64,000 bases of DNA from Bacteroidia bacterium. Lineage in GTDB: Bacteria; Bacteroidota; Bacteroidia; Chitinophagales; Chitinophagaceae. Positions 17,292-31,097 of this stretch are shown here, piece after piece. The position numbers and the translations under genes are program-made. The stretch is taken from positions 186,001 through 250,000 of the forward strand of contig JAUHYD010000003.1 of the NCBI GenBank assembly GCA_030426665.1, read 5' to 3'. The notes below the pieces were generated by a model. The model made no database searches and was not told where the DNA came from. It saw only the letters and a list, made by a program, of their open reading frames with translations. Each line of letters starts with the position of its first letter. Position 1 is the stretch's first letter.

Positions 17292-17305
17292 TTGATTCAG
17301 GTCAA
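17292..17305. promoter_or_regulatory. FNR-like binding box 2
   Basis: TTGATTCAGGTCAA differs by one base from the symmetric consensus and is nearly identical to box 1, 37 bp centre to centre. It ends 50 bp before the TonB receptor start. Confidence 0.6.
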
Positions 17306-17355
17306 TGGATTTTTGTTTCATTGTATGGATTTTTGTCTTATCAAACCATACGAAT

Positions 17356-19728
17356 ATGACACGTCTGATACTACTTGTTGCACTACTCATAAATACTATC
17401 GGGTCAAACGCCCAACAACAGACACAAACCATTTCCGGTTATGTATATGACGACGCATCGCGCGCGCCACTTACGGGGGTTGTTGTTACTGTAATGAACA
17501 CCACTCCGCAAAAAGGAGCTGTAACAGATGCAGATGGCCGATTCCGAATAGATAGTGTGCCAATCGGCAGACAAACCGTGGTAGTATCTTACATGTCTTA
17601 TGAAAATAAGGTGCTCAGCAATCTGGTGGTAACCGCAGGTAAGGAGGTATCATTAGACATTGCCATGCAAGAGGCCGTACATAGCCTGAAAGAGGTAACA
17701 GTTAGTTACGACCGGAGTCAGGACAAGAACCGCACAATCAATGACATGGCACTTATCAGTGCACGTTCGTTCAATGTAGATGAAACCAAACGATACGCAG
17801 GTTCCCTCGGTGACCCATCGCGCATGGCCGCCAATTTTGCGGGTATAGTGGCAGGCAATGACAGCCGGAACGATATAGTGGTACGTGGCAACTCGCCCAA
17901 TGGTATGCTGTGGCAGGTAGAAGGATTGAATGCACCTAACCCCAACCACTTCGGGACAGTAAACAGTACAGGCGGGCCGGTGAGTATGCTGAATAACAAC
18001 AACATTGCCAAGTCCGACTTCCTGACGGGTGCGTTCCCGGCACAATACGGCAATGCCCTGGCAGGGGCTTTCGATATACGACTGCGCAACGGGAACAGAG
18101 ATAAAGCAGAGTATGTTGGTCAAATCGGCTTTAACGGATTTGAAGGCGGTGCAGAAGGGCCGATCGGCAAGAACAAAAAGACGTCTTACCTTATCAACTA
18201 CCGCTATAGTACATTGGGTGTATTCAAGGCTTTGGGGCTTAACCTGGGTGCCGGCACAGCGGTACCCATCTACCAGGATGTTAACTACAAGCTGATGTCG
18301 GATCTGAGTAAAAAAAGTAAGCTTACTGTATTCGGAATTGCCGGTAACAGTCGCGTTAATTTCCTGGGCGCAGACATAGACACTACCAAACCAGACCTGT
18401 ACGGTGGCAACCCGTTTGAAGACCAGCGAGCCAACTTCGCAACTACCATCACAGGAGCGTCGTATGAGTACCAATTGTCAGAGAAATCATCTACCAAACT
18501 GATAGTCGGCTATTCAACCACAAAACAACGCTACACCAATGACTCAATCAGTCAGGTCGACAACTCAACTTATCCCAGTCAGGATGCCGACTTCAGAACG
18601 GGCAAGCTGTCTGTACAATGGATATACCGCCACAAGTTCAATGCTAAAAACAACATACAAGCAGGGCTGACCTATGAAAACATCAGCTACGACCTTTCGT
18701 TTAAACGCTTGTTCCCGCAGCAACCTACACGGGTATATTCTGATGAACAGGGAAACATGAATCTGGAACAGGGGTATATGCAATGGAAGCACCGGTTCAA
18801 TAACGACCTCTCATTTGTAGGAGGTATGCACTTGCAGTACCTGGACCTCAATGGCAGTTTTGCAGCTGAGCCACGTGCTGCTCTCCGATACAGACTCAAC
18901 AACAAAAACTCAGTAAGTATTGGTTATGGACTGCACAGTCAGGCGCAAAACGTGTATAACTACTTTGTACAGACACCGACGGCAATGGGGAGCATACGCA
19001 CCAATGAAAACTTAGGCTTTACCCGCAGCAATCATTTCATCGCCTCCTACGACCTGAACATATCCCGCAATCTGCGAGTGAAAGCAGAAGGCTATTATCA
19101 GGCGATAAGTAATGTACCAGTAGAATCAAGAGCATCGTCCTATTCTGTATTGAACTCCGGGGCGCGCTTTGAATTAGACAATGAAGACAGCCTGGTCAAT
19201 AACGGAACCGGCACTAACTACGGGGCCGAAGTAACAATAGAACACTTCCTGAGTAAGGGTTTTTACTTTCTGATTACCGGGTCGCTAATCAACTCCCGTT
19301 ACACCGGCAGCGATGGCGTAGAACGCAATACAGCTTTTAATACCGGCCATGTACTGAATGTACTTGCCGGCAAGGAGTTTAAGGTTGGGAAGAAGGGAAG
19401 TGTGCTTGCACTCAACATTAGAGTATCAACAATAGGCGGCAGATACCTGACACCTATAGACCCTGTGGCATCGCAGGCTGTGGGAGATGCCGTGTTCAAC
19501 ACTACAAAGGCCTATTCTGTAAAGCAACCCGACTACTTCCGTACCGACTTCAGGATAGCCTATAGAAAGGAATTTAAGAAAAGCACGATGGAATTCTCAC
19601 TGGACCTGCAAAACATAACAAACCATAAAAACGTTTTCAACCAGACTTACGACTCCCGTACCAACCGCATCGTATACAACTACCAGCAAGGCTTCTTCCC
19701 CGTGCCATTGTTCCGGTACACTTTTTAG
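17356..19728 (+). CDS. TonB-dependent receptor with carboxypeptidase-regulatory-like domain
   Basis: 790 aa from MTRLILLVALLINTIGSNA (signal peptide); an upstream in-frame start would place 17 extra residues before it. Residues about 22-105 form the CarboxypepD_reg-like domain (ISGYVYDDASRAPLTGVVVTV, part; DGRFRIDSVPIG). The plug follows (NDIVVRGNSPNGMLWQVEGL), then a beta barrel ending in an aromatic residue (LFRYTF). It energises uptake of an unknown ligand across the outer membrane. No SusD partner follows, so it is not a glycan-utilisation pair. Two FNR-like boxes precede it, suggesting control by the adjacent Crp/Fnr protein. Confidence 0.9.
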   Translation: MTRLILLVALLINTIGSNAQQQTQTISGYVYDDASRAPLTGVVVTVMNTTPQKGAVTDADGRFRIDSVPIGRQTVVVSYMSYENKVLSNLVVTAGKEVSLDIAMQEAVHSLKEVTVSYDRSQDKNRTINDMALISARSFNVDETKRYAGSLGDPSRMAANFAGIVAGNDSRNDIVVRGNSPNGMLWQVEGLNAPNPNHFGTVNSTGGPVSMLNNNNIAKSDFLTGAFPAQYGNALAGAFDIRLRNGNRDKAEYVGQIGFNGFEGGAEGPIGKNKKTSYLINYRYSTLGVFKALGLNLGAGTAVPIYQDVNYKLMSDLSKKSKLTVFGIAGNSRVNFLGADIDTTKPDLYGGNPFEDQRANFATTITGASYEYQLSEKSSTKLIVGYSTTKQRYTNDSISQVDNSTYPSQDADFRTGKLSVQWIYRHKFNAKNNIQAGLTYENISYDLSFKRLFPQQPTRVYSDEQGNMNLEQGYMQWKHRFNNDLSFVGGMHLQYLDLNGSFAAEPRAALRYRLNNKNSVSIGYGLHSQAQNVYNYFVQTPTAMGSIRTNENLGFTRSNHFIASYDLNISRNLRVKAEGYYQAISNVPVESRASSYSVLNSGARFELDNEDSLVNNGTGTNYGAEVTIEHFLSKGFYFLITGSLINSRYTGSDGVERNTAFNTGHVLNVLAGKEFKVGKKGSVLALNIRVSTIGGRYLTPIDPVASQAVGDAVFNTTKAYSVKQPDYFRTDFRIAYRKEFKKSTMEFSLDLQNITNHKNVFNQTYDSRTNRIVYNYQQGFFPVPLFRYTF

Positions 19729-19883: not shown

Positions 19884-21338
19884 TTGAAAAATAGCAGGCA
19901 CCTGCCCTTCTGGTTATTTACTGCTGGTTGTATTCTATGCCTTACCCTTTCGGTATTGATTCAGGATGGCATGTTTATGGACGCTGTTCTCTACTCCAGT
20001 GTTGCCCACAATCAGAGTATTGGTGTTGGCACATTCTGGTTTCCCCAGTATAGTACACTCAATATTGCGCAGTTACCCTCCTTTCATGAACAGCCACCAT
20101 TGATGTTTGGAATTGTTTCGCTGTTCTATCGGGTGTTGGGTGACAGTCTTTATGTAGAGCGACTATATACGTTCCTCATGTTGTGCATTACTATGTGGCT
20201 GATGGCTGCTCTTTGGCGGAACCTATATAATGACAAACCTGTCTTGAAGAAGTACGTATGGGTATCGTTTGTTTTATGGATTTCGATACCGTGTGTCTAT
20301 TGGGCATACAGTAACAATATGTGTGAAAACACGATGGGGATATTTGCGCTCGGCTCAGTATTGATAAGCTACACGACCCTGAAACGGGGTGATGACCGAA
20401 CGGCAAACTGGTTGTTATCGGGATTATTTATATTTCTGGCAACTTTTACAAAGGGTTTTCCGGCCTTTTTTCCGGTATGTGTTCCGCTTCTATATTTTCT
20501 TATCGTCAAAACCGGTAAGCTTTCCAGGGCAATCCGCAGTTCTTTTATCCTTGTAGCGGTACCTCTGCTTATTTATGCAATATTGTTCAGTATACCGGTA
20601 AGCAGAGAAAGTCTGTCCATCTATCTGTTCAAGCGGGCCTTCCATAGAATTGGCAATGACCCGACGGTAGAATATCGTCTGGATATACTGTATCGAATTT
20701 TTTGTCAGCTCATTCCACCACTGGTGATTATGCTGCTGCTGTATGTAGCGGCACGCAAGCAAAAAACAGAACATAAAATGCGGTGGTCAGACAGGCAAGC
20801 GTGGTTTTTTATTTCGGTCGGACTTTCGGCATCTGCACCGTTGGTCCTGACGCTGGTACAGAAGGATATCTACCTTATTCCATCATTTCCGTATTTCGCC
20901 ATAGGGATGGCAGCAATGGTGTTGCCAGCAATAGTGCAATGGGTGGAAGCAATAAATCTCAAAAGGAACACCTACAAAGCGTTGCTGGTTGTGAATGTTG
21001 TCTTCTTTGTAAGCTCTTTATTTTTTCTTGGTTGCCGGTATGGAGGGGTACACAGGGAGCAGGATACTATACACGATGTGAGGGTGTTGGGAACGGTAGT
21101 TCCGAAGTTTGCAACCATGACTGTCCCCCGACAAATGTATAACGAGTATGATTTTGTGTTACATGGTTTCCTGATGCGCTATGATAATATCAGTATCAGT
21201 CCGTATGAACTGTATGACTACTTCCTGATTGAAAAAAACATGGTTGATACTATACCCGAAAATTATACAAAGCTTGCACTGCCAACAAAGAAATTCGACC
21301 TCTATAAAAGAGGTGACGGCACACGAGGGGGGCATTAG
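19884..21338 (+). CDS. GT-C glycosyltransferase (GT39/ArnT-like)
   Basis: 484 aa, multi-spanning inner-membrane protein. The first extracytoplasmic loop has the acidic DGMFMDAVLYSSVAHN segment, the place of the catalytic Asp in GT39/ArnT/PMT enzymes that use lipid-linked sugars. About 10-11 hydrophobic segments follow, then a short soluble tail. The start codon is TTG (TTGAAAAATAGC); no ATG lies before the first membrane segment. The family glycosylates lipid A, glycans or proteins at the periplasmic face. Acceptor unknown. No clear promoter or operon partner. Confidence 0.8.
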   Translation: MKNSRHLPFWLFTAGCILCLTLSVLIQDGMFMDAVLYSSVAHNQSIGVGTFWFPQYSTLNIAQLPSFHEQPPLMFGIVSLFYRVLGDSLYVERLYTFLMLCITMWLMAALWRNLYNDKPVLKKYVWVSFVLWISIPCVYWAYSNNMCENTMGIFALGSVLISYTTLKRGDDRTANWLLSGLFIFLATFTKGFPAFFPVCVPLLYFLIVKTGKLSRAIRSSFILVAVPLLIYAILFSIPVSRESLSIYLFKRAFHRIGNDPTVEYRLDILYRIFCQLIPPLVIMLLLYVAARKQKTEHKMRWSDRQAWFFISVGLSASAPLVLTLVQKDIYLIPSFPYFAIGMAAMVLPAIVQWVEAINLKRNTYKALLVVNVVFFVSSLFFLGCRYGGVHREQDTIHDVRVLGTVVPKFATMTVPRQMYNEYDFVLHGFLMRYDNISISPYELYDYFLIEKNMVDTIPENYTKLALPTKKFDLYKRGDGTRGGH

Positions 21339-21457
21339 TTTCAGATTGGCAGGGTAGTTGCCGAAATCCAGAAAACGTGCGATAGCAAACACAAATGACA
21401 CCACCCTGATATAGCACTTTGGCAAAGGTTTTTGTATATTCACAAAAAGTAGCAAGC

Positions 21458-23377
21458 ATGAAACCCTATATTATACCCTGCATTTTTACATTTCTCCTAT
21501 TATCTACCAATGCACGCGCTCAAATTATAACCACCATTGCAGGTACAGGTATATCCGGCTATAGCGGAGATGGGGGTGCTGCTACGGCTGCGCAAATTGG
21601 AAATGTATTTGCGATAGCCATTGATACCGCCGGGGATATTTTTATTGCGGGATACGGAAGTAAGAGAGTCAGAAAAGTAAGCACATCGGGGATTATTACC
21701 ACTATAGCCGGAACTGGTACAATCGGACATAGCGGCGATGGCGGGCCGGCAACAGATGCGGAGCTTACTGCTATTCAAGGAATTGTCACTGACACTCATG
21801 GCAATGTATTTGTAACGGAGCAAGGAACTGTATTTAGTGGAGTCCGTAAAATTGATGCTTCCGGTACTATCAGTACTATTGCAGGCACTATTACAACCGG
21901 TTATGCCGGCGATGGTGGACCTGCCACAGGTGCTGTATTTAACCTGCCGATGGGTCTAACCGTTGATGCCTCCGGAAATATCTATGTAGCAGATGCTACG
22001 AATGGAAGAGTCAGAAAAATAAATTCTGGTGCAGGAGGTATTATTACCACAATAGCAGGCAATGGCACTTTAGGGTATAGTGGTGATGGCGGAGCAGCTA
22101 CATTGGCAGCATTGTCACCCTATGATGTAGCGATAGATGCAGCAGGCAATATTTTTATTGCATGTTGGGGACCTTCTGGTAACAACTATATCCGAAAAGT
22201 AAATACCTCGGGTATTATATCAACAATTGCCGGCATCGGTACGGCTGGTTACTCAGGGGACGGTGGGCCTGCTACTGCTGCCGCATTAACTACTCGCAAG
22301 CTACATGTAGATATTGCGGGAAATATCTATTTCCCTGACTTTAGCCACCGCATTCGAAAGATTGACCCATCCGGCATTATAACCACTATAGCAGGGACAG
22401 GCATTGCAGGGTATAATGGCGATGGCTGTGCTGCTGACTCAACTCAATTAAACAGCCCTGGTGATGTGGTGCTAAATACGGTTGACGGACAACTCTATAT
22501 TGCAGACAACCTCAACTACCGGATACGCAAAATATCCCCCGACAACCCGATTGTGTTCACAGGCGGAGCTATCCAATATCTGAATGTATGTAGCGAGGGA
22601 AGCATTGGAATAGATACGTTGCTTTCGGTATCAGATGCAGATATTGGTCAGGGTATTGAATGGAGTCTTTTAGCTGCTCCGTCGCATGGTGCTGCATCTG
22701 TTGCATATACTGCTACCAGTACCGGAAGTATTGTTGTACCGACCGGCTTGCTGTATAACCCTTTGTTTGGCTATTCCGGTATGGATACACTCAGGGTAGT
22801 CGCAACAGACTGCGGCAACAACAGCGACACCACCACCATTTGTGTAACAGTTGATGCGTCAACTGATGCAGGCACAATATCGGGAGCTGATACTGTATGT
22901 ATAGGAACAACAGAAGGATACACCAATGCTGTTTTCGGGGGAGCATGGTCCAGCAGCAACACTGCGGTTTGCAGCATCAGCAGTACCGGTGTCGCAACAG
23001 GGGTGGCAGTGGGTTCTTCAACAATCAGCTATACTGCCACTAATAGTTGTGGCACTACTACGTCTGTCAAAGACGTTGCTGTGATTAGTGCCGATGAATG
23101 CAGTACATCTGTCAGTAATGGCGCCGCATCGCAACGTGGATTCATGCAAATCATTCCCAACCCACTTTCCGGCGGCAAGGGGACTATTTACATTGATTTA
23201 CCACAACGAGAGTTAATTGCTGTCACCATTGTGGCATCCGACGGTCGGACGATACAATCGTTCAATACCTATAGCAACACCCACACGCAATTTTTGCTTG
23301 ATGTACCGACGGGTTTGTATTTTATCAGAGTGGTATCGGCAAGTTATATTGCCTCGGAAAAGGTGTTAGTAAACTGA
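21458..23377 (+). CDS. Secreted NHL-repeat protein with T9SS sorting domain
   Basis: 639 aa with a signal peptide (MKPYIIPCIFTFLLLSTNARA). About six NHL-type repeats of roughly 55 aa follow, each with ITTIAGTG...GYSGDGG and a GN-x-[FY]IA...RVRKV element, forming a beta propeller. Then come cadherin-like or Ig-like segments and a T9SS type A C-terminal domain (MQIIPNPLSGG...SEKVLVN). It should be exported through the type IX system to the cell surface or medium. A close paralog is at 57192-59051. Start chosen by the signal peptide; a TTG at 21419 would add 13 residues. Confidence 0.85.
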   Translation: MKPYIIPCIFTFLLLSTNARAQIITTIAGTGISGYSGDGGAATAAQIGNVFAIAIDTAGDIFIAGYGSKRVRKVSTSGIITTIAGTGTIGHSGDGGPATDAELTAIQGIVTDTHGNVFVTEQGTVFSGVRKIDASGTISTIAGTITTGYAGDGGPATGAVFNLPMGLTVDASGNIYVADATNGRVRKINSGAGGIITTIAGNGTLGYSGDGGAATLAALSPYDVAIDAAGNIFIACWGPSGNNYIRKVNTSGIISTIAGIGTAGYSGDGGPATAAALTTRKLHVDIAGNIYFPDFSHRIRKIDPSGIITTIAGTGIAGYNGDGCAADSTQLNSPGDVVLNTVDGQLYIADNLNYRIRKISPDNPIVFTGGAIQYLNVCSEGSIGIDTLLSVSDADIGQGIEWSLLAAPSHGAASVAYTATSTGSIVVPTGLLYNPLFGYSGMDTLRVVATDCGNNSDTTTICVTVDASTDAGTISGADTVCIGTTEGYTNAVFGGAWSSSNTAVCSISSTGVATGVAVGSSTISYTATNSCGTTTSVKDVAVISADECSTSVSNGAASQRGFMQIIPNPLSGGKGTIYIDLPQRELIAVTIVASDGRTIQSFNTYSNTHTQFLLDVPTGLYFIRVVSASYIASEKVLVN

Positions 23378-23388
23378 TAGCGGTTTGG

Positions 23389-23601
23389 CTACTCTTTTAC
23401 AAACTTTCGTACAACAGTACCGTTTATCTTAACGAAATAGATACCCGCAGCAAGGTTACTGACATCTACGTTCGCACTCTTGTCATTATGGTCACGAGCA
23501 TAAACCACTTTGCCCATAATACTGTAAATGCTGAGTTCCGTTATTTTGACGGGTGCAGCTGTGGTTAGCTGATTGGTAGCGGGATTGGGGAACAACTGCA
23601 C
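23389..23601 (-). pseudogene. Orphan T9SS type A C-terminal domain (gene remnant)
   Basis: The 70 codons encode only a sorting domain: LFPNPATNQLTTAAP, then LSIYSIMGKVVYA and AAGIYFVKINGTVVRKFVKE. No signal peptide or passenger precedes it; the same frame reaches a TAA five codons upstream of the apparent GTG start. A sorting domain alone has no use, so this is the 3' relic of a lost secreted-protein gene. It lies tail to tail with the NHL gene and at the left border of the AT-rich island, which suggests the island's arrival or a deletion removed the rest. Confidence 0.75.
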
Positions 23602-23704
23602 TTGTTCAGATAATTAAAATAATATCGACCGACTCGAAAATCACATTCGTCAAAAAGTGTATCAAAAGAGAAGTGGAATGTATTAAGTATTCTAAAGCTG
23701 AATA

Positions 23705-24199
23705 CTATTTAATGGGTGGACGTGTTGACCACATCGCCATTCCCACGTCATTCGCTACCACTCCATATTCTCCTCTATCTATAGAAATATTGTGTGCATG
23801 AACTATGGCTTTCATAAGCCTAAATAGATCTGAAAAAAACAAAGGGATATCGCCATTTTCAACTTCTGCCTTGAACTCCATTGAGCTACCTTCCTCGTTA
23901 ATCTGTTTTAATTTTTTCAAAACAAGCATAACGAATTTCGACTTATATTCGTCTCCAATTGTACTCAGAGGTGTTATTCGTAACACGTCTGCATTAACCG
24001 AAAAGAATGTATTCTGACTTTCACCTAAAGATTCCATAACTACATTCAGAAACACTCCCCAATCTAATTCAATATCAACATCAACAGAGTATTTCTTTAT
24101 AGTCGTAGAGTTCAAGCACTCTTTCGATTCTTTACTTGGAATATTTCGATCTGAAATCTTGATTATGCTGTTTGAATTCATAACTTCAATTTGCAACAT
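23705..24199 (-). CDS. Unknown small protein, island gene 3
   Basis: 164 aa (158 if started at the second Met, 24181). Soluble, acidic, with no signal peptide or TM segment. It reads as a mix of strands and helices (YSVDVDIELDWGVFLNVVMESL, part; SKFVMLVLKKLKQI; LFFSDLFRLMKAIVHAHNI). No family recognised. It lies 177 bp downstream of the metallophosphoesterase gene on the same strand and shares the AT-rich composition of the island. Its own TATATTTG -7 box (24222-24229) suggests separate or additional transcription. It may be an accessory or an immunity-like partner of the system, which is a guess. Confidence 0.6.
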   Translation of the reverse strand: MLQIEVMNSNSIIKISDRNIPSKESKECLNSTTIKKYSVDVDIELDWGVFLNVVMESLGESQNTFFSVNADVLRITPLSTIGDEYKSKFVMLVLKKLKQINEEGSSMEFKAEVENGDIPLFFSDLFRLMKAIVHAHNISIDRGEYGVVANDVGMAMWSTRPPIK

Positions 24200-24221
24200 G
24201 GCGGTACTTTGAATTTGACGC

Positions 24222-24229
24222 CAAATATA
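24222..24229 (-). promoter_or_regulatory. -7 box before island gene 3
   Basis: Reads TATATTTG on the minus strand, 22 bp upstream of the first possible start; no clear -33. Confidence 0.45.
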
Positions 24230-24376
24230 GCATATCTTATCACATAAAACACATAATAAACATGAAAAATATTGTTAAAAATACTAAAATTATGTTAAAA
24301 AACAAACAATTAACCGGCATATTGTAAATTTTTACCTATAGAGTAGAGGTATTGCATCATGAATTTTTTCAAACGT

Positions 24377-25921
24377 TTATTTTTGACCGTGTAGAATACT
24401 AACATATGCATCAACGGAATTGGCCATTCCAAAACCGCCATCTTCTCTCAATAACTTGTTTTTCTTCATTATCTGAAAACACTCATTTTCTGACCTGTGG
24501 GGTAAATAAAACTTCCCTTTTGCGTCCTTTGGTTTTAGCTCTGTGATAAAGATATTTTCTTTTTGTTGCCATAGCCAGCCATCCTTATTTCCATTTTCTT
24601 TAAACTCATACACTTCCCTTGACAGAGTATTGAACCCAAAATCTAACGAATATACGGAAAAAGTATTATCCGAAAATAAATCTCTATTTCTGAAAGTGCC
24701 ACCAACCTTCAAAAGATAGGCCTCTAACCCTAGTAAAGTAGGCTCTGTTTCTTTATGTTCATGCCCACACAATATGATGTCCGAGAAATCTATTATCGTC
24801 TGAATAGAAGACCTATCCTTATTATTACTGATATTGTTGAAATGGTGATCTTTTATCGAATGCCAATTGAAATCGTTATGCAACATCGTTATGATATATT
24901 TCCCGTCTATCGACTTACCATCGTCCCCAACATACTTTTTTGCTTTTAGCTGATCTAAAATAGCAGACACGATAGGCTGACCGACTACTAGTTGACCATG
25001 GCATTCCTTTGAATCTACGTTAAGCCATGCGCTATTCAACACGACGACTGCAATATGTTCATTAACAATCGAAACTCCAGTTGTATATAAGGTTGTTTTT
25101 TCAAAATTTAAAAAATTCTCATTAATAGATGCATTTTCAAAACCTACATTCTTGTCAATAAATAATGCATTTTCATATTTTTTAATTATTGAATACATCT
25201 CGCTTTTGTCAGGAATGCTTTCTGGACTTATAACACCAGCTATTACTTCTTTGTATTCGCGATATGTTTTACCGACAATATCGAAAAAACCACCGTTTAA
25301 AGACTCATTAACAGAGGCACATATCACCCCTTTTTTTAGATGATAACACATATCATGGTTCCCAAACGCTACAAATATCCCCTCTGACATTTCGACAATT
25401 TTACTCAAAAGCGTTTTCACATTTTCATCTTTAGATACATCTATTTTTCCGAAATCATAAATATCGCCAGTAACTACCGTTACATCATATTTTGTATTTG
25501 CAAATTCAGCAAAAGACGATATCATATCTTTAAGGCGTGACTTATAATGCAACTCTGTTAGGATGAAATATTCTGTCTTAATGTCGTTATATTTCGTTTT
25601 GAATCCTCCTTCTGAATCTAAAAATGATTTTAGGAAACTAATAGCACTTTTATAATCATTGCCAAAACACCTATTATCAGCAAAATTTGACAATACAACT
25701 TCGCTATCCTGAAAATTATAAGTCTCAGATTCTGCAGTTCCATCTAGAACTATTCTTTTGACGATATTAGTGAGTCCTCTTTTATCGCCGTTGATAATTT
25801 GTTCAATATCACGTTTCAGTTGTTCAGAATAACTCTCTTCTTTGATTAAAAAATCAAGACCAGTTTCGATTAGATGGAGATCGCTCAAATGCAGTATCTT
25901 GTATTTTGGTTTTTTGTTCAT
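24377..25921 (-). CDS. Calcineurin-like metallophosphoesterase, island gene 2
   Basis: 514 aa from the ATG at 25921, chosen because it overlaps the upstream stop by one base (TAATG). All five metal-binding motifs are present: D14-x-H16 (LSDLHL), GD at 152-153 (VVTGDIYDF), GNHD at 187-190, H348 (MLHND) and GHEH at 386-389. The spacing between motifs I and II is about 137 residues instead of the usual 30-40, so a large insertion (about 20-145) sits there. A C-terminal extension of about 120 residues follows the core. The family hydrolyses phosphodiesters, such as nucleic acids or cyclic nucleotides. Coupled translation with the 1026-aa protein implies one complex or pathway. Confidence 0.88.
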   Translation of the reverse strand: MNKKPKYKILHLSDLHLIETGLDFLIKEESYSEQLKRDIEQIINGDKRGLTNIVKRIVLDGTAESETYNFQDSEVVLSNFADNRCFGNDYKSAISFLKSFLDSEGGFKTKYNDIKTEYFILTELHYKSRLKDMISSFAEFANTKYDVTVVTGDIYDFGKIDVSKDENVKTLLSKIVEMSEGIFVAFGNHDMCYHLKKGVICASVNESLNGGFFDIVGKTYREYKEVIAGVISPESIPDKSEMYSIIKKYENALFIDKNVGFENASINENFLNFEKTTLYTTGVSIVNEHIAVVVLNSAWLNVDSKECHGQLVVGQPIVSAILDQLKAKKYVGDDGKSIDGKYIITMLHNDFNWHSIKDHHFNNISNNKDRSSIQTIIDFSDIILCGHEHKETEPTLLGLEAYLLKVGGTFRNRDLFSDNTFSVYSLDFGFNTLSREVYEFKENGNKDGWLWQQKENIFITELKPKDAKGKFYLPHRSENECFQIMKKNKLLREDGGFGMANSVDAYVSILHGQK

Positions 25922-28900
25922 TATTGATTTTTTTCTTTCCAATTCTGGATATGGTAAAAATATTCTATTTTGCAAACCAAAGTATGGTTATACAACATTT
26001 TAAATAATATATTATTTGCGTGGAAGTAATACTGTTTAAGTTGACCGTTTACAAAAAAACCACCATTCGGGTCAGGCTGTATTTTGTCACTTTTGATACT
26101 ACTTGCATTTATCTGTCCACTCTTATCTTCATCAATACGATTTCTAAATATTGGCACATCCACATATTCTAACAATGCCTTCAAATAACCCATGAATGCC
26201 CCGCTAACAAATCCGAAAAGGACACTTTTATCTCCAACAAGACGCTTGTGCCTGCCAACGTTTAAGTAACTTTTTGATGATAATATTTCGGAATAGAGTG
26301 TTGAATCACACTTTCCATTTATCAAAATTTTTGAAAATAATTTGTAACAATTTTCACTATATCTAAATACATCGTCTGTCTGTACAACATTAGGGGTCAG
26401 ACTTTGGGCATATTCCTTTATGTCCTTCATGTTTAAGAACCCTGACAAAAATGAATTCTCATGAAGCAGGCGGCAAATAGCAAATGCGCTCTCATGATGT
26501 AATTCATACAATTCAGGTTTAAATTCTTTCAGTTTTCTATACCACATCTGTTCTCCCATGTTTGCAAATAGGTTCTCATAGTCACAGGTTGTCCCATTAT
26601 CGGCTACAAGAATATAAACCATTGTGATTCTGAAGATAGCCTTCAAAAACATGATGTGGCTTATTTTTCCGTTAGTCGTATATACGTCAGGCTCTTGAAA
26701 AAAATGTATCCAATACCAGTCAGAATATAATCCTATGTCTTTATTAAAATAGAATAAAAAATTACTATAATCAACCAAAACATATTGAATCAGCTCATCA
26801 TCGATAAACTTCAAATATTGGTAAGTTTGAACTAAAACATCTAAATTTTCTGATATTTTCGATTTCTGTATTTCCCCTAGTAGTTCTTGCTGAAGATGAA
26901 GGGAGCCTCGTTGTGGATATTCTTTGAATAGGTAATACAACATACCAAAATCAAGTTCAATTTTCTGTTTACTATCCAAAGTATGTGTTTGGTAATAGTC
27001 CTTTTTTATTTTCACTATTTCTTCACTTTTCCATGCTAGAAGGTAATCACATACGTCTTCGGCTCTTTCTATTACAGTATGCCTTGTTTTTTCAAAGAAC
27101 ATATTAAACGATTCTTTAAAAATAGTTACCAAAAATGTTGCTGGCTCTGTAATATGAAAATAGTTTAACTGGAGACTATACTCATAAGATTTTATACCTG
27201 ACGTGTTTGACAAGTATGCCACACTGGGGGAATGAAATACCGGTTTCCATTTAAGATATGCAAAATCGCTTTCATAGAATCCAAGTGTACTGCGGAATAG
27301 CCCAAATACAAAATTTGCTACCGTTGAGTTTTGCTGAATACCACCATTAAAATCTAGATTGAACTCCGACAAATCCATCGTCCTTAGGCTATGTTGCATT
27401 ATGTTGAAATGAACACGTTCGAACAAACGAGCAAAGCCATTTATTTTATTCATTAAGCGGTGCGCATCTGTTGCTGCATGAAGGGGCTTTTTTTGTTTAT
27501 CTGCTTCATCCTTTAGATAACCAATCATGGCCATAATAAAAGGGTGCACGCCTATAATGTATATATATAGCTGCCTATCTGAAATAATATCGTTATAATT
27601 GCTTAATACTTTTAATACTCTTTGCCGCACTGCCTTCGATACGCGGAGCGAAGTCATATTATGCCATACTTCATCAACCTCATTTGCATTAAATTGCAGT
27701 TTTTCATCTAGTTTTTTGGCTATATTTGTCCGAACAATTGATTCATTTGAACCAGAAAAGATTGTTTTGATATCTACATCTTCTCTTATTTTAGGAGTAG
27801 TGTTAGTACGCCTGATACCATTCCTCACAGTAGCATTGGCGTCCTTTGCTAGTAAATTGTCCCGATAGTAACGAACCATCTTCCCAAGTGTGTTTTCTAC
27901 AGTGACGGCACCATTCGTATGGCTGCCACTTTTATATGAACCTGGTTCAATATCTGCATCATTATACAATACATATCCCATCTCGAAGTCTCCAATTTTA
28001 CCGTCGGGACTATTGGTATGTGCTGTTGGGATTGTAGTTATTCTAGCAAAAGCGTCAACGTTTCCATTATGTTTAGTAATACTGTTGGCAACCCATGCAT
28101 TAAAGGTTTCATTGCTCTTTTCATCTAACTTATCGTAATCTATACCAAAATACGTATTACTCGCTGAAAACACATTAGTATTCTGATAATTTTTTTTGTC
28201 TTCGTCCTCAAGCCAATTATAGTATAGAGATTTTTTCACAATATTTTCATCGTCCGAAATTGACTTATCTTTTTCAATGCTTTCTTTGTTCGGGTTTAAT
28301 ATGTCTTCAATATCTTCAATTGATATAGATTCTCGTATTCGATATAAAATATTGCCCAAGATACTAAGACAGTCTCCCAGAATCAATACAGTTATCTCAT
28401 GCCACGATGTTGTATCAAGTATTAAGTATCTTACTTTCTTATCAACATGTAAGTCTGGTGTTGCATTATAATGGTTTATCCTCCTAGCTATGCCTTTTTT
28501 TATCGCTTCTATTATTTCTACTCCAGACCCGATTAGCAAACTGTTTTTTATTTTAAAAGAGGTAATGGTGCAAAAAGATGGAGTACTTAAAGTGGAAGTA
28601 CTTTCTGATTCCTTTTTGGGGAAAAGGTCATCATATCCATACTTGTAAGTAGTATCTTTTGCGGATAATGTACAGTTATAAATATGGTAATTAAAGGATC
28701 TAACCTTTTTATCTTCTGCATCATTTATGTCCTGTTCGCCAAAAGAAATATTCGGATTAAACTTTTGGTATCCAAAAACAAAGTCATCCACTTTAGCAAT
28801 TACAGCAAGGTCATAGCAGCCCAGTAATGCATAAAACGTTGGCCTAAATAGGTTTGAATTCTCATCTATATACTTTTCTCTAAACCGATTTAGAACTTTT

Positions 28901-29001
28901 ATATAATCTTCAAATGTTGTATTTATTTTCTCCTTTGTTGCTTTTTCTTTTCCTAAAGGTGCATTTACTAAACCAATGAAAGCACCGTGTTTATCAATCA
29001 T
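25921..29001 (-). CDS. Unrecognised 1026-aa protein, island gene 1
   Basis: 1026 aa, no signal peptide and no obvious TM helix. The N-terminal 260 residues contain two similar hydrophobic strand-turn segments (FYALLGCYDLAVIAKVDDF and RYLILDTTSWHEITVLILG). These resemble ligand-sensing ferredoxin-like folds; that is inference. A low-complexity acidic linker follows, and then a long helical region (about 480-1000) with no P-loop, nuclease or protease motif that I can see. The stop overlaps the metallophosphoesterase start (TAATG). Codon use is strongly AT-rich, unlike the panD and NHL genes on either side, suggesting recent transfer. No family assigned. Confidence 0.8.
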   Translation of the reverse strand: MIDKHGAFIGLVNAPLGKEKATKEKINTTFEDYIKVLNRFREKYIDENSNLFRPTFYALLGCYDLAVIAKVDDFVFGYQKFNPNISFGEQDINDAEDKKVRSFNYHIYNCTLSAKDTTYKYGYDDLFPKKESESTSTLSTPSFCTITSFKIKNSLLIGSGVEIIEAIKKGIARRINHYNATPDLHVDKKVRYLILDTTSWHEITVLILGDCLSILGNILYRIRESISIEDIEDILNPNKESIEKDKSISDDENIVKKSLYYNWLEDEDKKNYQNTNVFSASNTYFGIDYDKLDEKSNETFNAWVANSITKHNGNVDAFARITTIPTAHTNSPDGKIGDFEMGYVLYNDADIEPGSYKSGSHTNGAVTVENTLGKMVRYYRDNLLAKDANATVRNGIRRTNTTPKIREDVDIKTIFSGSNESIVRTNIAKKLDEKLQFNANEVDEVWHNMTSLRVSKAVRQRVLKVLSNYNDIISDRQLYIYIIGVHPFIMAMIGYLKDEADKQKKPLHAATDAHRLMNKINGFARLFERVHFNIMQHSLRTMDLSEFNLDFNGGIQQNSTVANFVFGLFRSTLGFYESDFAYLKWKPVFHSPSVAYLSNTSGIKSYEYSLQLNYFHITEPATFLVTIFKESFNMFFEKTRHTVIERAEDVCDYLLAWKSEEIVKIKKDYYQTHTLDSKQKIELDFGMLYYLFKEYPQRGSLHLQQELLGEIQKSKISENLDVLVQTYQYLKFIDDELIQYVLVDYSNFLFYFNKDIGLYSDWYWIHFFQEPDVYTTNGKISHIMFLKAIFRITMVYILVADNGTTCDYENLFANMGEQMWYRKLKEFKPELYELHHESAFAICRLLHENSFLSGFLNMKDIKEYAQSLTPNVVQTDDVFRYSENCYKLFSKILINGKCDSTLYSEILSSKSYLNVGRHKRLVGDKSVLFGFVSGAFMGYLKALLEYVDVPIFRNRIDEDKSGQINASSIKSDKIQPDPNGGFFVNGQLKQYYFHANNILFKMLYNHTLVCKIEYFYHIQNWKEKNQ

Positions 29002-29172
29002 TTGTTAAATATTTTTAGCAAGTATAAATATTTTTTGTTTTAAAACACAGCTTTCAGAGTATAATTTAAGAAAATAGGCTATAGACTATTTTAGTTTCCT
29101 CTGAACTCAATTTAACTATACAGGTCGCCACCGCTGTATTTTATTTAACTATTCGCTATACACGTAGCAAGC

Positions 29173-29201
29173 TTGTTGCAAATGGTTTTTGCCTACCTTT
29201 G
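29173..29201 (+). promoter_or_regulatory. panD promoter, nearly leaderless
   Basis: TTG at 29173-29175 and TACCTTTG at 29194-29201, 18 nt apart. The panD ATG is at 29209, only 7 nt after the -7 box, so the transcript may start at or within a few bases of the start codon. Confidence 0.65.
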
Positions 29202-29208
29202 CGCCGCA

Positions 29209-29553
29209 ATGCGGATAGAAGTATTAAAATCTAAAATACATAGGGTAAAAATATCTGAGGCTAACCTGAACTATATAGGCAGCATCACTATAGATGAAGA
29301 CCTGATGGATGCAGCTAACCTGATAGAGCACGAGAAAGTGCAGGTACTATGTATAGAAAACGGTGAGCGATTAGAAACATATATCATTAAGGGCATACGT
29401 GGCTCTAAAATGGTGTGTATGAATGGCCCTGCCGCCCGAAAAATAACGGCAGGTGACACCGTTATTATTATATCGTATGCGACTATGGAGTTTGAGGATG
29501 CAAAAACACATAAACCTACCGTGATATTCCCGAAGGAGGGCAATAGTCTTTAA
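29209..29553 (+). CDS. panD: Aspartate 1-decarboxylase
   Basis: 114 aa. The self-cleavage site Gly24-Ser25 is present (NYIGSITID), producing the pyruvoyl cofactor. Other conserved parts are the [22 protein letters not shown] start and [19 protein letters not shown]. The enzyme makes beta-alanine from aspartate for pantothenate and CoA synthesis in the cytoplasm. The ATG at 29209 is used because upstream in-frame codons would run into the promoter. It begins a three-gene group with the flippase-like gene and rfaE2. Confidence 0.97.
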
Positions 29554-29626
29554 TTACCTGCTAACCGGTTTTCTTAATAAATATTTAGTATTTTTCGTAC
29601 ACGTTCTTTAGTATCTTTAATAGCTC

Positions 29627-30634
29627 ATGAAGAAAACCATCCTGACCATACTACAATACATGCTGTTTCTGGGGTTGGGCATCTGGATTATCTATCACAT
29701 GCTGCACCAGCTTACCGACAAGCAGGTTACAGAGCTGGGTAATGCAATAAGCAATGCTAATGTATGGTTCCTGATACCGGTGTTTATTATCGGTTTTCTT
29801 TCTCACTTTTTCCGGGCCATTCGCTGGCGGTATCTACTGGAGACAGTAGACCTGAAACCGTCCGTTGTAAACACGACTTTTGCAGTGCTTATAGGGTATA
29901 TTGCCAATCTGGCGTTGCCTCGTGCTGGAGAGGTTGCCAAGTGTACGGTGCTCGCCAAGTACGAAAAAATGCCGGCACATAAGATGATTGGTACTATTGT
30001 AGCAGAGCGTGCCTTTGATATGGTGAGCCTTGTGGTGATAGCTTTGCTGGCATTCGTATTGCAGGCTCAGTTTCTGGGCAGCTACGTTGCTTCGGCTACC
30101 GGTGCGATTAACGATAAATTTCAGAACAGCAAAATGATATTGCTGATAGTATTGGCGGTGGGAGCACTGGCAATACCGCTTGGTATAATGCTGTACAAAA
30201 AGAATAAGGAAACCAAGGTGGGGAAGTTTGTGAAAGAGCTAGGCAGGGGCATTTTTTCGATAATATACATGAAGAAACGCTGGCCTTTTCTTGCGTATTC
30301 TGCACTCATATGGCTGTGTTACCTGCTGCAACTTTACATTGGGTTCTGGTGCCTTGCCGAGACAGCGGAGTTGTCATTATCTACTGCGCTGGTAGTTCTG
30401 GTATATGGCAGCTTAGGCATGATAGTAACACCAGGAGGCATTGGTCTGTACACATTGCTTGTGGCACAAATGCTGGTTGCGTACGGCGTCAGCGAGGTAC
30501 CTGCACAGGCGTTCGGATGGATAGCCTGGGTAGCACAGACAGCTGTTATCATCATTTTGGGTCTTATTTCTCTGTTATCTATTCAAACATATAACCGCAA
30601 AAGAAATGGACAAACTTCAATGGATAAAGCATAA
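29627..30634 (+). CDS. Flippase-like membrane protein (LPG synthase TM / UPF0104 family)
   Basis: 335 aa with about eight TM helices and no soluble synthase domain. The region SHFFRAIRWRYLLETVDLKP and ANLALPRAGEVAKCTVLAKYEKMPAHKMIGTIVAERAFDM (pieces) matches the family that includes the membrane half of MprF and AglD. Members without a catalytic domain are thought to flip lipids or serve cell-envelope assembly. It lies 73 bp after panD and overlaps rfaE2 by 29 bp, a conserved neighbourhood in Bacteroidota. Confidence 0.85.
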   Translation: MKKTILTILQYMLFLGLGIWIIYHMLHQLTDKQVTELGNAISNANVWFLIPVFIIGFLSHFFRAIRWRYLLETVDLKPSVVNTTFAVLIGYIANLALPRAGEVAKCTVLAKYEKMPAHKMIGTIVAERAFDMVSLVVIALLAFVLQAQFLGSYVASATGAINDKFQNSKMILLIVLAVGALAIPLGIMLYKKNKETKVGKFVKELGRGIFSIIYMKKRWPFLAYSALIWLCYLLQLYIGFWCLAETAELSLSTALVVLVYGSLGMIVTPGGIGLYTLLVAQMLVAYGVSEVPAQAFGWIAWVAQTAVIIILGLISLLSIQTYNRKRNGQTSMDKA

Positions 30635-31097
30635 AGTATATGACCGTGAAGCACTCATAAAAGAGTGCAATGGCTGGAGGGTAAGAAATGAAAAGATAGT
30701 TTTTACCAACGGTTGCTTCGACATTCTCCATCACGGGCACCTCGATTTACTGGCCAAAGCAGCCAGCCTTGGCACGAAACTGATAGTCGGAATTAATACC
30801 GACAGTTCGGTAAAGAGACTCAAAGGAGATGCAAGACCAGTTACTCATGAGCAAGACAGGCTGTTTCAGATGGCATCTTTGCTTTGTACCAGTGCTATTT
30901 GTTTGTTTGATGAAGACACCCCGGAAGCGCTGATAAACCTTATAAAACCTGACGTGCTGGTTAAGGGTGGCGATTACACCATTGACACTATAGTAGGAGC
31001 AGACTTTGTGCAAAGCTATGGTGGCGAAGTAAGCATCATTCCGTTTGTAGAGGGCTACTCCACCACGTCCCTAATCAGCCGGATTCAGAAATTGTAG
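30606..31097 (+). CDS. rfaE2: D-glycero-beta-D-manno-heptose 1-phosphate adenylyltransferase
   Basis: 163 aa, the stand-alone nucleotidyltransferase half of HldE. The HxGH motif is H42-H-G-H45 in FDILHHGHLDLL. Other conserved residues are GINTDSSVKRLKG and LVKGGDYTIDTIVGADFV. It makes ADP-heptose for the LPS core in the cytoplasm. The start lies inside the last 29 bp of the upstream membrane-protein gene, so translation is probably coupled. Confidence 0.93.
   Translation: MDKLQWIKHKVYDREALIKECNGWRVRNEKIVFTNGCFDILHHGHLDLLAKAASLGTKLIVGINTDSSVKRLKGDARPVTHEQDRLFQMASLLCTSAICLFDEDTPEALINLIKPDVLVKGGDYTIDTIVGADFVQSYGGEVSIIPFVEGYSTTSLISRIQKL

Follow-up and report, generated by a model that had tools for sequence, protein, structure and literature searches.

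A mobile metallophosphoesterase cassette with a large partner of an unnamed family, a candidate defence module in one order of Bacteroidota

What do two overlapping genes in an AT-rich island of a Chitinophagaceae genome encode, and do they form a system of their own? The window that we analysed is a stretch of 64,000 nucleotides from a Bacteroidia bacterium (GenBank assembly GCA_030426665.1, contig JAUHYD010000003.1, positions 186,001 to 250,000). On its minus strand lie a gene for a large protein, a gene for a calcineurin-type metallophosphoesterase (MPE) and a third, small gene (Table 1). A preliminary description of this DNA had proposed the pair as a candidate undescribed system with the large protein as sensor or regulator and the phosphoesterase as effector. 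We find that the MPE and the large protein, which belongs to an unnamed family, make up a real, conserved and mobile module, and the cassette is best read as a new variant among MPE-effector systems, distinct from those already described.

The three minus-strand frames are present as first described, and so is the single shared base: at the junction TCAATAATGAAC the stop TAA of the large gene and the start ATG of the MPE gene overlap by the A of TAATG, with an alternative MPE start (TTG) 54 bases upstream of the ATG. The island is indeed AT-rich, the 4625-base pair having a GC content of 0.337 against a mean of 0.439 (sd 0.014, minimum 0.399) in 984 overlapping segments of equal length elsewhere in the 64 kb. 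Open frames of 1026 and 514 codons are not explained by chance, judging from their relatives, because these are open and alignable at identities of at least about 20% in eight other loci.

We collected nine copies that we label intact: the window, two further divergent cassettes on contigs C22 and C5 of the same genome (three intact in all), and one each in genomes G009, G463, G743, G755, G778 and G823. The genome samples behind these copies overlap, and the window's own genome is counted in the related-genome, family and order figures. A search with the single protein matched 2 of 60 related genomes, and a scan of genome contigs returned one locus, JAUIBA010000024.1, whose genes match G009:C32. 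Profiles found the large protein in 5 out of 294 genomes from the family (the own genome, G009 and G463, with a truncated copy in G629 and a fragment in G518), in 5 of 198 of the order (the own genome, G743, G755, G778 and G823) and, in samples of the class (295 genomes) and phylum (395 genomes), in the own genome only; one of six genomes in the family of G743 has a match. The single protein hit 2/395 in the phylum sample, the second being a candidate in G208 that we dropped (E 6e-4 over 63 residues, the frame containing a stop, not recovered with profiles). The cassette is thus patchy and, in the genomes searched, confined to one order of Bacteroidota.

Every one of the nine intact large genes has an MPE gene adjoining it on the same strand, so the conservation of the pair that the preliminary description wished to see checked is borne out, and the two genes are a conserved unit. 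They occur in two arrangements. In order I (window, G009, G463, G743, G823 and G755) the large gene comes first and the MPE gene follows after an overlap of 1–14 bases or a 12-base gap, and in order II (C22, C5 and G778) the sequence is MPE, small gene, large gene. The GC content of the cassette is below that of the rest of the fetched stretch at 9/9 loci. FastTree trees of the nine large proteins and the nine MPEs agree on the groups (window, G009) and (G778, (C22, C5)) and on the joining of both; a larger MPE-domain tree supports the two groups, not their join.

That the module moves is seen in its own genome, where C22 and C5 carry divergent cassettes (44% identity between the large proteins) as cargo between the shared flanks of a mobilizable element, with flank identities of 88.9% across 5.87 kb and 94.9% across 630 bp. 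In a scan of the C22 flank a relaxase (PF03432) and a coupling protein (PF02534) passed cut-off and a NikA-like gene stayed under it. A third copy of the element stands at the start of contig C29 (L058 1-3968, G000:C29) with its cargo absent in this assembly; there a 621-bp end runs directly into a coupling-protein gene that is truncated, after which come MobC-like and relaxase genes and, read by eye, a frame for a tyrosine recombinase. A coupling-protein gene also lies directly upstream of the G778 cassette. As a separate observation, a restriction-like gene (Mrr_cat; L084 6878-7801, G000:C5) lies roughly 2.4 kb ahead of the relaxase gene of the C5 element.

The window's cassette lies beside panD. 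Of 34 other genomes of the genus that we searched, 11 were compared on the panD side, in stretches of 3.6–15 kb, and these gave no match to a cassette gene. In G010 a homologue of the window gene at 17305-19728 lies directly beside panD, and the intervening 9.4 kb of the window, cassette included, is absent; in the remaining congeners the genes next to panD differ again, or the stretch is too short to tell. The congener G009 does carry a cassette, on another contig beside a gene that looks by eye like moaA, and its panD locus has none, in keeping with the earlier idea that the pair sits at different loci in relatives. The pair is therefore neither syntenic in all relatives with ordinary composition nor, as shown below, a match to a well-known metabolic family, the two outcomes that had been named as telling against the proposal.

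The MPE itself is recognisable at the level of its superfamily. The window protein exceeds the gathering score of Pfam Metallophos (PF00149; 33 bits against 21.5, E 1.1e-7), and the C22 and G463 proteins reach 51.8 and 45.7 bits. Residues D14, H16, D153, N188, H189, D190, H348, H387 and H389 are identical in 9/9 proteins, and we assign them by what we take to be the calcineurin-type metal-site scheme (D-x-H, GD, GNHD, H, GHxH); position 156, the second D of GDxxD, is variable (D in 4/9). With these metal-site residues identical throughout, an active metal site has likely been kept. One residue of the preliminary description needs correcting: the histidine it numbered H386 is H387, which G386 precedes and H389 follows.

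Which MPE proteins are its nearest described relatives? Among NCBIfam models, the window MPE ranks DS8_antiphage first (1.5e-10), sbcd second (1.2e-6) and DS9_1_antiphage third (4.1e-5), all under cut-off. When all nine MPEs are compared with 18,950 NCBIfam models, DS9_1 is matched by eight (best 1e-17) and DS8 by six (best 3.4e-29), and the SbcD and CpdA-type models by three each. We took the names DS8 (NF053861) and DS9_1 (NF053862) to denote the systems DS-8 and DS-9. According to the part of the DefensePredictor source consulted, DS-8 is a metallophosphatase with NACHT in one protein and DS-9 a metallophosphatase protein with an HAD protein, both protect against phage, both lose defence when the metallophosphatase site is mutated, and the target of their enzyme is stated to be unknown (PMC13092281). 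The same part lists metallophosphatases as newly validated in phage defence in 2026 (PMC13092281).

The cassette resembles DS-8 in its MPE domain, and the DS8 model is the best NCBIfam match of the window MPE; it differs in having separate genes, no Walker A motif, no NACHT match and a partner that matches no model. With DS-9 it shares the plan of a two-gene unit with a stand-alone MPE protein, but the window MPE scores 22.6 bits against a cut-off of 420 and its partner has no match to an HAD family. We therefore place the cassette, on sequence criteria, in neither DS-8 nor DS-9, since the cut-offs are not reached and neither NACHT (no Pfam match in the window proteins) nor HAD is found, although by analogy it may work like them. 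Several PADLOC candidates are also touched: PDC-S60 by 3/9 MPEs (best 3.2e-18), PDC-S10 by 2/9 (best 2.6e-7) and PDLC00736, named 'Effector, Endonuclease', by 4/9 (best 1e-14). However, the G778 match to PDC-S60 spans only positions 2-97 of 1027, the large proteins match none of the three, and for the window MPE the sole match of this kind is a weak one to PDLC00736 (4.3e-5). The window proteins stay under every specific NCBIfam cut-off, and the MPE passes only that of the general Pfam superfamily, in keeping with the label of candidate undescribed system. A literature search of partial coverage showed no title or abstract beginning that describes this pair among its top-ranked records.

The large protein represents a conserved family, about 830–1026 amino acids long, that is unnamed in the four libraries searched: Pfam, NCBIfam, PADLOC and PHROGs all lack a credible match for the window protein (best E 0.074), and NCBIfam and PADLOC give no match for any of the nine. 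Its eight relatives are 20–50% identical to it, and the alignment of the nine has 27 invariant columns (17 of them, chosen from the list, were checked residue by residue), among them D64, D72, K150, E202, R223, H328, D350, D550, E630, D744, R791, R953, D977, G980 and G981. The nine share no HAD motif.

The first ~410 residues show patterns that read as three ferredoxin-type modules. As a yardstick we used the Lrp family of E. coli, the own genome having no PF01037 match. Aligned by hhalign with Lrp, AsnC and DecR around a G-x-Y-D-type hairpin, modules 1 and 3 reached probabilities under 5%. In a shuffle control of these comparisons the scores of modules 1 and 3 were reached by 0/200 column shuffles each and that of module 2 by 27/200, the best shuffle for module 1 coming to 18.0 against a real score of 18.9. 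In a test for internal repeats 5/200 shuffles reached the score of modules 1 and 3 and 64/200 that of modules 2 and 3, so that a likeness between the modules is not clear. Perhaps, then, the N-terminal half consists of ferredoxin/RAM-like sensor folds, a lead that these weak similarities suggest. Against solved structures, the single window proteins were unmatched, the profile of the large protein drew two chance-level entries and that of its N-terminal half one.

How might such a pair act? A role in defence or in conflict between mobile elements, the two taken jointly, is quite probable, and within that range we lean towards a module directed against phages (or other mobile DNA) with the MPE as its effector. 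The module would be self-contained and move horizontally. The large protein and the MPE, made from coupled genes, would probably form one complex, in which the large protein, as sensor or scaffold, might hold the MPE inactive and recognise some sign of infection. Once freed or reoriented, the MPE would hydrolyse a phosphodiester, in a nucleic acid or a nucleotide signal, and thereby stop the growth of the phage or the cell; the small protein would probably serve as adaptor or damper. As substrates, DNA, RNA and cyclic nucleotides are all possible, given that the MPE profile matches Lmo2642, SbcD/Mre11 and Rv0805 in the PDB.

More speculatively, and on balance short of what we would call probable, the cassette could be a new type of immune system, in which sensors of about 830–1026 amino acids, perhaps with a repeated ferredoxin/RAM-like ligand-binding half, control an MPE in trans, stand where DS-8 has its NACHT and DS-9 its HAD partner, and travel as exchangeable cargo of mobilizable elements. 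A stand-alone MPE with a separate partner of unfamiliar fold would offer a clean route to the switch of the enzyme and to its cleavage target, and nine loci in two gene orders, with three intact copies in one genome, are natural variants for such tests.

The question, raised in the preliminary description, of whether the pair is enriched near known defence genes has a divided answer. In G743 (L081 5508-12015) a gap of 30 bp separates the large gene from an Argonaute gene upstream of it on the same strand (Pfam Piwi; PADLOC pAgo 5e-240), and MmeI-type, helicase and T5orf172 genes are near; the Argonaute and the large–MPE pair could be one operon or simply neighbours in an island. Around the G463 cassette, WYL, DUF2779 and AAA genes pass cut-off, HEPN_AbiU2 falls below it, and a HipA-like frame is recognised by eye.

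A number of observations weigh against a defensive role, or against reading it from the DS-8 likeness. The surroundings of four copies out of nine (window, G009, G755 and G823) consist of genes that by eye seem ordinary, and the tally of two near known or candidate defence genes (G743 and G463) and three beside mobilization genes has no random-locus baseline. The window MPE reaches 39.5 bits with the DS8 model, whose cut-off is 790, and in whole-genome searches with that model (2.2e-9) does not surpass the top-scoring housekeeping-like MPE of the widespread ~620-residue kind (1.8e-9); SbcD also outranks DS9_1 for this protein in NCBIfam. Conversely, a profile of the family's MPEs detects three of six DS8 or DS8-like proteins (50–60 bits) and all seven housekeeping or E. 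coli MPEs tried (28–42 bits), and it misses a true DS-8 homologue (G499) along with the DS8-like proteins of G584 and G208. A tree of MPE domains with DS8-like, housekeeping and E. coli proteins does not resolve the deep branches, and the PDB entries for Lmo2642 and SbcD/Mre11 are matched about equally by the MPE profile. The truncated large gene of G629 (677 amino acids) and the fragment in G518 (a 213-residue frame, E 3.2e-4), both left out of the nine intact copies, have no adjoining MPE gene. No relative of the large protein appeared in phage and plasmid collections or in viral scans, which used short-peptide patterns and reach near relatives only. AlphaFold models, built from two-row alignments of the window and L002 proteins, had mean pLDDT (the program's confidence score) values of 30.1 for the large protein and 33.5 for the MPE and were unusable.

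On the other side of the DS8 comparison, the C22, G463 and C5 MPEs beat the housekeeping-like MPEs with that model (4e-16 to 3e-11). Across 147 genomes of the family, 55 matched the DS8 model, only one of them over cut-off. As a side observation, six MPE proteins of the same family, 662–1106 amino acids long (L104-L109), match the DS-8 model, and L109 (G499) is the one over cut-off. In plasmid and phage collections the G778 MPE had no match; the G463 MPE had one weak plasmid match, with 20% covered.

The strongest competitor to an anti-phage role is that the cassette serves the element that carries it, by toxin–antitoxin-like stabilisation or by exclusion of other elements, with a toxic MPE that the large and small proteins restrain. 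The cassette is twice the cargo of an element with relaxase and coupling-protein genes and stands beside a coupling-protein gene a third time, and the related small genes that C22 and C5 have on both sides of the large gene would fit such restraint. However, no mobilization gene was recognised by eye in six of the nine copies (where family searches covered, in part, only G463 and G743), the usual antitoxins are far smaller than the large partner here, and stabilisation does not call for as many as three intact cassettes per genome. We regard this explanation as unlikely.

Less likely again is an ordinary operon for nucleotide or nucleic-acid housekeeping that was recently acquired by transfer. 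MPE enzymes are common in metabolism, and genes for MPEs of about 620 amino acids with a similar DS8 match are widespread in the same family; yet the cassette is limited to 2 of the 60 related genomes (the window's own being one of them), is missing from the 11 congener panD-side stretches, sits in mobile contexts and pairs the enzyme with a partner that matches no family. A divergent DNA end-processing pair of the SbcCD/Mre11–Rad50 type (a nuclease with an ATPase of about 1000 residues) is highly improbable: a calcineurin-fold nuclease beside a protein of about 1000 residues, in overlapping genes, does recall E. coli sbcD–sbcC in size and gene overlap, SbcD/Mre11 is among the best matches of the MPE profile and NCBIfam sbcd is matched by 3/9 MPEs (as second-best for the window), but we rejected this identity because the ATPase motif is missing from the partner, Walker A being absent from the window MPE and all nine large proteins and no ATPase match being found for the large proteins in Pfam (window, C22 and G463) or in NCBIfam and PADLOC (all nine).

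The preliminary description had noted a small gene on the same strand in the window, and its position holds up across most loci: in order I a small gene of 130–172 amino acids lies 3' of the MPE gene in five of six. Its sequence does so to a lesser degree, since only the window and G009 small proteins are similar among the order-I loci (32% identity, BLAST E 2.4e-18), and those of G463, G743 and G823 occupy the equivalent position with no detectable similarity. In order II a small gene separates MPE and large genes in 3/3 loci, and in C22 and C5 another follows the large gene. The order-II small genes are mutually related (for example C5_s1 with C5_s2 at 4.6e-5, C22_s2 with C5_s2 at 1.2e-6) and show no significant similarity to those of order I (best E 0.29). 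The small protein of the window finds nothing better than E 0.01 in Pfam, NCBIfam, PADLOC or PHROGs.

Upstream of the window's small gene stands TATATTTG, which fits what we take to be the Bacteroidota -7 promoter motif, TAnnTTTG, and serves as a lead only. Within 150 bases upstream in order I, the motif occurs before the small gene in 3/5 loci, the large gene in 2/6 and the MPE gene in 0/6; in order II it precedes the first small gene in 2/3 and no other gene. A separate promoter for the small gene is thereby only hinted at. Scans for sigma-70 promoters and terminators gave results at or under the shuffled level.

Table 1. Features of the window locus, with the small genes that flank the large gene in the C22 and C5 cassettes
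Feature	Position	Strand	Remark
Large-protein gene	25921..29001	minus	1026 aa, unnamed family
MPE (calcineurin-type metallophosphoesterase) gene	24377..25921	minus	514 aa from ATG
Third, small gene	23705..24199	minus	164 aa
TATATTTG, candidate promoter motif	24222..24229	minus	30 bases upstream of small-gene ATG
T9SS-type C-terminal-domain remnant	23389..23613	minus	74 residues; marks left boundary of AT-rich island, outside system
NHL-like flanking gene	21419-23377		named by eye
panD-like flanking gene	29173-29553		named by eye
Flanking small genes (C22 and C5 cassettes)	L010 10555-11091 and 7287-7724; L011 10994-11545 and 7687-8076

Some smaller observations concern individual copies. In the two element-borne cassettes the related small genes flank the large gene as if duplicated. 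In G755 a 63-residue frame lies 3' of the MPE gene (L080 4963-5154), and its end resembles by eye the 141-residue small protein of G463. The truncated G629 copy (L022 8859-10892) is apparently decayed and has ThiF and BilC-like genes nearby.

At the window's own boundaries, no terminal repeats marking the ends of an insertion stood out, Rfam matched nothing in 21000-31000, and a scan of the window for tRNA genes found none. The broken gene of the type IX secretion system (T9SS) that had been reported next to the island is there as a C-terminal remnant whose gene body is absent upstream, a domain that we read by eye and from weak BLAST similarity to other such ends. In G002 a 2700-residue gene with a T9SS-type end matches the remnant in its orientation and in the side of panD on which it lies; the similarity between the two ends is weak (E 6.5e-4) and no better than that to another T9SS-type end in the window. 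The cassette may possibly have replaced a gene of this kind at panD.

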